From contig BDTA01000072.1 in NCBI GenBank assembly GCA_002897935.1, forward strand, positions 1 through 35,723: DNA of 35,723 bases, written 5' to 3'. Shown here one piece after another: positions 24,555 through 28,421 of the stretch; position 1 is the first letter of the stretch, and each line of letters begins with the position of its first letter. The notes under the pieces are model-generated. The model was not told where the DNA came from and searched no databases. It worked only from the letters and a program-made list of their open reading frames with translations. The DNA is from a bacterium BMS3Abin08. GTDB lineage: Bacteria > Nitrospirota > Thermodesulfovibrionia > Thermodesulfovibrionales > JdFR-85. The translations under genes were made by a program, and so were the position numbers.

Positions 24555-25337
24555 ATGGTAATCATCAAGAAGAGTTTGACGAATTCAGTTTTTTTGATCA
24601 TTGTTTTTCTGTTTGTTGTTCAGCTTTTCAGTGCACGGAACGCAGCTTCAGAGAAGCTGTATAAATGGACGGATAAGAGGGGAGCGACTCATATCACCGA
24701 CTATCCCCCTCCTGACAGCGAGAAGAGAGAAGGCCCTGTGGTAGTCATAGAGGAAGAACCCGGGCTCAAGCTTGACAGGACAATTGTATACACCGCCGGT
24801 CCCTTTCTCTCGGCCAAGGCAAAGAGACTGCAGGGGAGGTTACGTGAAGGCTTAAGGGCTCTCTCCGACATCCCGTCACGGGGGACTGCGTTCATCCTCC
24901 TCTTTATAGGCATACCGGTAGTTCTCCACCTCTACTATGCCCTGTGCCTTTATCTCTTCAGCCGCAAACTCGGAGTCTCCTCTGCATGGCTTGCCTGGGT
25001 GCCCGCTCTCAATGTCTTTCCCCTGGTGAGCGCGGCTGGAAAGCCCTGGTGGTGGGGGGTGCTTTTCCTCTTGCCCCTGTCGGGGTTAATACCACTGCTT
25101 TATTCCAACGTCTATATGGTTGCGGCACTCTTTGTCGTATGTATAGTCGATTTAGTCCTCTGTGTTATCGTATGGATGAGAATTTGTACCAGCCTCTGGA
25201 TAAACAGGTGGGTCGGCCTGCTGATTTTCGTGCCCCTGGTGCAGTTGGTTCTTATAGGTTATCTTGCCTTCAAGCGGGAGCCTCAGGAGGAGGCCTATGG
25301 GGGTATGCGGGATCCTGATGATGTATCACGGTCCTGA
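24555..25337 (+). CDS. DUF4124-containing polytopic membrane protein
   Basis: A 260-residue protein. It has a signal-anchor-like hydrophobic start (about residues 11-26), then a DUF4124-type module (LYKWTDKRGATHITDYPPP, 35-53) expected to be outside the cytoplasm. Four or five hydrophobic segments follow (about 111-135, 143-160, 167-183, 187-208, 219-237), with Trp-rich loops (GKPWWWGV). The fusion of DUF4124 to this membrane region is unusual to me; function is unknown. GGAAGGAG precedes the ATG. The Arg/Lys-rich tail is cytoplasmic. Confidence 0.75.
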   Translation: MVIIKKSLTNSVFLIIVFLFVVQLFSARNAASEKLYKWTDKRGATHITDYPPPDSEKREGPVVVIEEEPGLKLDRTIVYTAGPFLSAKAKRLQGRLREGLRALSDIPSRGTAFILLFIGIPVVLHLYYALCLYLFSRKLGVSSAWLAWVPALNVFPLVSAAGKPWWWGVLFLLPLSGLIPLLYSNVYMVAALFVVCIVDLVLCVIVWMRICTSLWINRWVGLLIFVPLVQLVLIGYLAFKREPQEEAYGGMRDPDDVSRS

Positions 25338-25470: not shown

Positions 25471-25989
25471 TCAATTGGCGAGTAATTCTTTTATTTCATC
25501 ATCAAAATCATTGATAAGCTCATCCGCCCAGCCGACCTGCCTGTAGGCGAGCCGGCCCCGGGAATCAATTATAACGAACGCTGGGACCCCCTTTGATATG
25601 AACTTGCTGTATACCTTCATGTCCCTGTCAAGGAGCACAGGCCAGTTCTTTTTGTATTTCTCAACAAACTCCTTTACTTTATCGGCATCCTCTCCGCGGT
25701 TTATTGCAAGGAAGACTACATCGGGGTTGCCTGAAAACCTTCCGGCCAGTTTCCCTATCCCGGGGAAAGAAATCCGGCAGTATTGTCACCATGTGTTGAA
25801 GAATTCAATAAATATGACCCGTCCACTGTAATCATTCAGACTTACTGCGTCTCCATTTAGAGATGGAAGGGTGAAGTCTTCCACCCTCTCCCCTATATCA
25901 TATACTTTTACATTGCTGCATCCGGAAAGGAGTATCAGGGGAAGGCATAGCAGGATTATTTTTAAATAATAATTATTATAGATTGCCAT
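25471..25989 (-). CDS. Selenocysteine-containing thioredoxin-fold (TlpA/ResA-like) lipoprotein, UxxC
   Basis: Reading through one TGA (25786-25788) gives 172 residues. Residues 1-24 are a lipoprotein signal (hydrophobic IILLCLPLILL, lipobox LSGC, C24). The fold starts with DFTLPSLNGDAVSLNDYSG and FIEFFNTW. TGA is residue 68, then QYCR: W-U-x-x-C-R replaces the usual W-C-x-x-C-R. After it the frame stays open for 104 residues, with cis-Pro136 (KGVPAFVIIDSRG) and a C-terminal helix, all proper for the family. AAGGAG lies nine bases before the ATG. The product would be an exported redox protein. It is the last gene after gap and pgk. A recent nonsense mutation is the rival reading, but TGA at exactly the catalytic Cys plus the hairpin favour Sec. 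Confidence 0.85.
25742..25788 (-). promoter_or_regulatory. Candidate bacterial SECIS element with its UGA
   Basis: Starting 20 bases after the UGA at 25786-25788, UUUCCC (25768-25763) pairs perfectly with GGGAAA (25755-25750) and closes a seven-base loop CGGGAUA. A lower helix CCGG/CCGG (25777-25774 with 25745-25742) extends the stem across a small internal loop. The apical loop begins 24 bases past the UGA and has G at its second position, as expected of bacterial SECIS elements recognised by SelB. It lies inside the coding frame, as bacterial SECIS elements do. Confidence 0.7.
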
Positions 25990-26058
25990 GGATTAAGGCT
26001 CCTTGCATCGGGTTTGGGGGTAAAGGCGGCCAGGGGTTTACAGGTTGCCTGAAAGGGC

Positions 26059-26127: not shown

Positions 26128-27357
26128 TCAGCTCTTCTTGTCGGTTAGTGCCGCTATCCCCGGTAGTTCCTTGCCCTCAAGGAGCTGGAGGGTGGCACCT
26201 CCACCGGTGGAGATAAAGGATATGCTGTCAGACACACCTGCCTGGTGAACGGCGAGGTCGGTATCACCTCCACCCACAATGGTCAGGGCATAGGCATCTG
26301 CAACAGAGCGGGCAACGGCAAATGTTCCCCTGGAGAAGGCATCAACCTCAAATACCCCCATCGGTCCATTCCAGAGTATTGTTTTTGCGTTTTGCAGCGC
26401 CTCTGAAAAGAGCCTGGCCGTTGCCGGGCCGATATCAAGGGCCTTCCATCCCGGTGGGATCTCAAGGGTTGGGACAATCTTTGTCTCACTCCCGGGTTCA
26501 AGGGCATGGGCTATCACACAGTCCACGGGAAGGTAAAACTTCACACCCCTGGCCTTGAGCTTTTTCCTGATTCTCTGTGCCGTCTCAAGCATATTCTTCT
26601 CAACGAGAGAATCTCCAACCTCATAACCCATTGCCTTGATGAATGTATATGCCATGCCTCCGCCGATCAGTACCTTATCCACATTTGCCTCGAGATTCTC
26701 AAGGACACCTATCTTGCCGGAGACCTTTGCACCACCGAGGATGGCCACAAAGGGACGGACAGGATTGTTAACCACTCCTTTCAGGTACTCTATTTCCTTC
26801 TTCAGGAGAAAACCGGCAGCCGAAGGAATGAACTTTGGGATACCCACAATCGAGGCATGGTTCCTGTGGGCCGTTCCGAATGCATCGTTAATATAGTAAT
26901 CGGCAAGTTCTGCAAGCCCCTTGGCGAAGCCTTCATCATTTGCCTCCTCCCCTTCGTGGAACCTCAGGTTCTCGAGAACTATAACATCACCGGGCTGCAT
27001 CTTATCGATGATGTTCTTTACCTGATGTCCTACACAGTCAGGAGAGAAAATCACCTCCTTGTTAAGCAGCCTCCGCAGCCTCTTGGCAACCGGGGCGAGG
27101 CTGTCCCGGGGATTCACCTTTCCCTTTGGCCTTCCGAGGTGAGAGGCCAGAATAACCTTTGCCCCTTCATCGATGGCATAGTTTATGGTTGGGAGTGACG
27201 AACGTATACGTCGGTCATCTGTAATATTGAGGTTTTCGTCGAGGGGTACGTTGAAATCCACCCTCACAAAGACCCTCTTTCCCTTAAGATCAAGGTCTTC
27301 TATCGTAAGCTTTCCGATGACATCCTTGATCGGGGATGGATTGAGATTGTTTTTCAT
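26128..27357 (-). CDS. pgk: Phosphoglycerate kinase
   Basis: A 409-residue glycolytic enzyme that makes ATP from 1,3-bisphosphoglycerate. Motifs seen: [65 protein letters not shown] and the C-terminal [18 protein letters not shown]. About 15 extra residues precede the family start; GGAGACAG lies before the ATG used. It follows gap by 23 bases, the usual glycolytic pair. Confidence 0.98.

Positions 27358-27380: not shown

Positions 27381-28421
<1,041 letters not shown>

Follow-up and report, generated by a model that had tools for sequence, protein, structure and literature searches.

A TlpA/ResA-like lipoprotein gene with an in-frame TGA

The gene considered here lies on the minus strand of the window, by which we mean the whole 35,723-nucleotide stretch of DNA that was analysed, and its features are collected in Table 1. 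Read from position 25989 down to 25471, it gives MAIYNNYYLKIILLCLPLILLSGCSNVKVYDIGERVEDFTLPSLNGDAVSLNDYSGRVIFIEFFNTW-U-QYCRISFPGIG...GVPAFVIIDSRGRLAYRQVGW...ELLAN followed by a TGA stop, with an internal TGA at codon 68 and 104 open codons after it. A plus-strand gene over the same interval was ruled out, as nothing comparable is found there; the first-pass annotation had flagged this feature without a strand, and the feature proves real, with the minus strand now assigned. A scan for promoters and terminators around the gene returned nothing exceeding shuffled expectation. The neighbouring gene with a DUF4124 domain is convergent with it.

Table 1. Features of the selenoprotein gene and its neighbourhood in the window
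Feature	Position	Strand	Basis
CDS, putative Sec-containing TlpA/ResA-like lipoprotein, 172 residues with Sec68	25471..25989	-	Translation with TGA as U; Pfam
Predicted lipoprotein signal peptide and lipobox LSGC, lipidated Cys24 at 25920..25918	25918..25989	-	Inspection
In-frame TGA, predicted Sec68, W-U-Q-Y-C-R	25786..25788	-	Orthologue TGA, Cys homologues, Sec machinery
TGC, putative resolving Cys71 of UxxC	25777..25779	-	Translation; Cys in 43/43 aligned proteins
Candidate bacterial SECIS hairpin	25742..25777	-	Agrees with four consensus constraints (PMC13188914)
cis-Pro, GVPAF, Pro136	25582..25584	-	Aligned to 3kcm (GVPET) and ResA (LPTT)
Terminal stop TGA of the CDS	25473..25471	-	Translation
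AAGGAG, probable ribosome-binding site, 9 nt 5' of ATG	25999..26004	-	Read from sequence
Phosphoglycerate kinase, upstream neighbour, 138-nt gap to the selenoprotein gene	26128..27357	-	NCBIfam
GAPDH, beyond phosphoglycerate kinase	27381-28385		NCBIfam
Probable membrane protein, N-terminal DUF4124 domain	24555-25337	+	

The predicted mature domain is a TlpA/ResA-like thioredoxin fold. It matches the Pfam families AhpC-TSA (PF00578; 69.1 bits against a curated cut-off of 26), Redoxin (PF08534; 62 bits against 26.6) and Thioredoxin_8 (PF13905; 34.7 bits against 27), and its best relatives of solved structure are PDB 3kcm (E=1.8e-18) and Bacillus subtilis ResA (E about 1e-17). With these two proteins it shares the fold, the domain length, the position of the W-C-x-x-C motif and the cis-Pro, but it has a putative Sec where they have Cys; alignment to them and to further relatives places both a WUxxC motif and the cis-Pro loop. 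Because the model for ResA proper (NF002854) scores 79.7 bits against a cut-off of 170, we file the protein as ResA-like only. Scores for the TlpA and DsbE models likewise fall below their cut-offs.

At the N terminus, a hydrophobic stretch runs into LILLSGC (residues 18-24), which on inspection agrees with the lipobox consensus [LVI][ASTVI][GAS]C, and the protein is therefore predicted to reside outside the cytoplasm. In the orthologue described below, the hydrophobic stretch ends in S-C (LLLFSC), which is less canonical than the consensus. Much of what the first-pass annotation had read from this gene is thus borne out: a TGA in place of the first catalytic Cys codon (the column is Cys in homologues that lack the TGA), an uninterrupted frame of 104 codons beyond it, a retained cis-Pro loop (Pro136, aligned to 3kcm and ResA), and a probable lipid anchor outside the cytoplasm, for which the LSGC lipobox and its Cys24 argue.

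Conservation and decoding of the TGA codon

A close orthologue from a different genus of the same family (genome G006; 64% protein identity) carries one TGA, at the same codon, within the motif EFFNTW-U-PYCRISFPG, and SelA and tRNA-Sec are also found in that genome. After the TGA, the two orthologues align over 102 codons with no internal indel or stop and with 65% amino-acid identity; third codon positions account for 52 of the 100 nucleotide differences, and the dN of 0.25 and dS of 2.2 give a dN/dS of about 0.11, a value that is approximate because dS is near saturation. Across 43 aligned relatives, the column of residue 68 holds Cys in each of the 33 without a TGA (33/33) and a predicted Sec in the other 10. 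The shared codon, the Cys column, and the third-position excess and constraint together place the in-frame TGA beyond chance.

A TGA is one base away from TGT, TGC and TGG, and the source assembly is a 2.61 Mb draft in 123 contigs (96% complete); a sequencing error in a Cys or Trp codon, or a recent nonsense mutation in what is now a young pseudogene, might therefore account for the codon. Against this, the same TGA recurs in a separate genome of another genus and at a different locus, where the orthologue is flanked by moeA and a gene for phosphatidylserine decarboxylase, and the frame past the TGA is open and strongly constrained in both copies. Because the TGA is conserved, we regard this explanation as refuted in practice and exceedingly improbable. 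Between these two genomes, no conserved neighbour was found that would name a substrate or an electron donor.

The same downstream constraint bears on the proposal that translation normally ends at codon 68, with a short product or regulated termination being what matters. In organisms that use Sec, some termination at UGA does compete with insertion, especially at low selenium. However, a product of 67 residues would be missing the catalytic motif, the cis-Pro and half the fold, and the 102 codons aligned beyond the TGA are under strong constraint; we give this proposal extremely little credence.

The genome that carries the gene encodes a tRNA-Sec with a UCA anticodon (70.8 bits), SelA (595.8 bits), SelD (326.7 bits) and SelB (355.7 bits over 1-575 of 581), the last being the sole full-length SelB found. 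The SelD gene (L063 / L017, G000:C100:26260-27174) has its own in-frame TGA, at AAGUAGK (KAAGUAGKLGP), so TGA is used for Sec elsewhere in the same genome. Among the 30 of 31 tRNA-family matches that were scanned for their anticodons, tRNA-Sec is the only tRNA with UCA; that of Trp is CCA and that of Cys is GCA.

These observations can be set against a further explanation, in which a non-Sec tRNA, such as a selC*-type tRNA-Cys with a UCA anticodon, reads the UGA as Cys or Trp. Such selC* tRNAs are known elsewhere, and the genome does contain a long-armed, tRNA-Sec-like tRNA with tRNA-Cys features. Its anticodon is GCA, however, with U73; among the tRNAs scanned, the UCA anticodon was seen in tRNA-Sec only, a single full-length SelB was found, and TGA serves as the ordinary terminator of 6 of the 22 genes in the window and of the selenoprotein gene itself. 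We consider decoding by a non-Sec tRNA very unlikely. The tRNA-Sec-like tRNA (L002:1501-1599; G000:C92:10603-10701, minus strand) was missed by ARAGORN and has an 8-bp acceptor stem and a long variable arm; it resembles the selC* tRNA-Cys of Nitrospirae and others, with GCA as its anticodon here. Second tRNA-Sec-like tRNAs, called tRNA-Cys(GCA), also occur in several relatives (L082, L083, L086, L088, L090).

The weakest of the lines of evidence for Sec is the candidate SECIS hairpin. Its spacing from the UGA is 23 nt, and it consists of an upper stem of 6 bp, a lower stem of 4 bp and a loop of 7 nt (CGGGAUA, the second letter being G), at -11.9 kcal/mol. Its margin over controls is modest, as 3.3% of synonymous-codon randomisations are as good, and the 61 nt that start at the UGA have an unremarkable minimum free energy (z -0.57). 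No hairpin passing strict SECIS criteria was found in the orthologue, in which the stem has a mismatch and the loop letters CGGGA are kept. According to a review, the consensus model does not fit all of the bSECIS elements proposed for known selenoproteins (PMC13188914).

The distribution of the gene is narrow. The subfamily is found in 2 of the 176 genomes of the order, and we count its consisting of only two sequences against the selenoprotein reading. At E<=1e-25, no further orthologue was found in those 176 genomes or among 396 genomes sampled from the phylum, the only other match in these searches being a Cys-type protein of genome G007 with 38% identity; a search of a species-genome collection gave a single, distant, Cys-type match from a gammaproteobacterium.

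We put the probability at roughly 0.93 that this is a functional selenoprotein gene in which UGA 68 is read as Sec, with a product that would be an exported, lipid-anchored thiol-disulfide reductase of the TlpA/ResA-like type. Insertion of Sec and function are what we infer; the machinery, the conserved TGA and the constraint are observed. The first-pass annotation had arrived at a functional selenoprotein and had pointed to the Sec machinery, to the residue that homologues hold at the TGA column and to possible frame decay in close relatives as the places to look. All four of SelA, SelB, SelD and tRNA-Sec(UCA) are present, the TGA is conserved, Cys fills the column in 33/33 homologues lacking a TGA, and the orthologue is intact rather than decayed (dN/dS as above), all of which argues for that proposal.

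A possible route to thiol-disulfide exchange in the envelope

In the mechanism that we propose, SelB bound to the hairpin just 3' of the UGA would deliver Sec-tRNA-Sec(UCA) to codon 68, so that translation would continue through it to a 172-residue precursor. The signal peptide would then export this precursor, and the lipobox suggests that it would be lipid-anchored at Cys24. In UxxC thioredoxin-fold proteins, it is established chemistry that Sec attacks and Cys resolves; here Sec68 would be the attacking selenolate and Cys71 would resolve the mixed selenyl-sulphide. The product would thus be an extracytoplasmic thiol-disulfide reductase, which probably receives its electrons from a membrane donor of the CcdA/DsbD type. 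The simplest assumption is a ResA-like role in reducing disulfides of envelope proteins, for example at the CXXCH sites of apocytochrome c; alternatively, the protein may reduce peroxides.

The NiFeSe hydrogenase of Desulfovibrio is a precedent for a lipid-anchored periplasmic selenoprotein, which makes the combination uncommon rather than unheard of. The text of a 2026 review makes no mention of lipoproteins or the periplasm, and an exported lipoprotein form of the Prx-like UxxC selenoprotein goes unmentioned in the texts of those papers that were searched.

Known relatives and a second UxxC family

Sec-containing UxxC proteins of the cd02966, PF00578, DsbA-like and DsbG-like types have been on record since 2005-2006 (PMC1088965, PMC1794560, PMC13188914). 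Among them is a TlpA-like, thiol-disulfide isomerase-like UxxC selenoprotein of cd02966 from a marine metagenome (PMC1088965; listed in PMC13188914), which shares with the window protein the TlpA-like thioredoxin fold and Sec as the first residue of UxxC, a likeness drawn by description and not by sequence (example MGB1650493.1). A Prx-like thiol:disulfide oxidoreductase selenoprotein of PF00578, with UxxC or UxxU (example WP_010940744.1; PMC1794560), shares the AhpC/TSA-family domain with UxxC, again likened by description only. The first-pass annotation had held a lipid anchor outside the cytoplasm to be uncommon among described bacterial selenoproteins; with TlpA-like, AhpC/TSA and DsbA/DsbG-like UxxC selenoproteins already catalogued, and a second one in the same genome, that claim was overstated.

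Two NCBIfam models cover thioredoxin-fold (seleno)protein families with related motifs, U-x-Y-C-R or W-A-x-x-U-G-C, whereas the motif here is T-W-U-Q-Y-C-R. Membership of either was rejected: NF053656 (redoxin_TUGYCR) scores 21.9 bits (23.8 for the orthologue) against a cut-off of 100, and NF041054 (WAxxUGC_long) scores 32.8 bits against 300, the UGC motif being absent. Because UxxC types are already catalogued and these scores lie far below the cut-offs, we place the gene in a new subfamily of a known selenoprotein type. At the level of sequence, the subfamily marked by FFNTWUxYCRISFPG appears to be new; its narrow distribution in the order is new as well, and the lipoprotein anchor probably is too. 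With it, the thioredoxin-fold selenoproteins predicted to act outside the cytoplasm gain a subfamily that has not yet been modelled, and it offers a concrete test case for Sec in envelope thiol-disulfide reduction. Standard gene prediction would yield a fragment of 67 residues, and the protein exceeds the cut-off of none of the NCBIfam models; genes of this sort are therefore likely to be undercounted.

Two UxxC TlpA-like selenoproteins can occur together in a single genome, as they do here. The second family has a copy in the same genome (G000:C123:11911-12504; L058:912-1508) with the motif FWTTWUGWCRKELPS; with this copy as query, matches at E<=1e-35 were found in 8 of the 176 genomes of the order, each with one TGA (8/8), which we also count in favour of Sec in the window protein. 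Its members (L058 plus L053-L057, L059 and L128) have W-U-x-W-C-R-K-E-L-P-S, with the TGA at the U of W-U-x-W-C-R. The two families share a TlpA-like domain, UxxC and an N-terminal hydrophobic segment. They differ in that identity between them is about 35% and that the second shows no lipobox Cys, is more widely distributed and has a strong, near-invariant hairpin, GGAAGG-AGUUG-CCUUCC, 16 nt downstream of the UGA.

A tree of these proteins sets the two Sec groups apart (2 changes). Two independent origins are suggested, not established, since an AU test does not reject a single clade (p 0.24). It is conceivable, though we think it rather doubtful, that in this lineage Sec replaced Cys on two or more occasions among the TlpA-like proteins of the envelope, in a lipoprotein and in a probably membrane-anchored protein, which would point to a redox relay that uses selenium outside the cytoplasm. 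The genome has a rich set of envelope thioredoxins: beside the two Sec-type proteins, six or more other TlpA/ResA-like paralogues that lack internal stops were seen, at L061 (G000:C16) and on contigs C91, C81, C46, C90 and C113.
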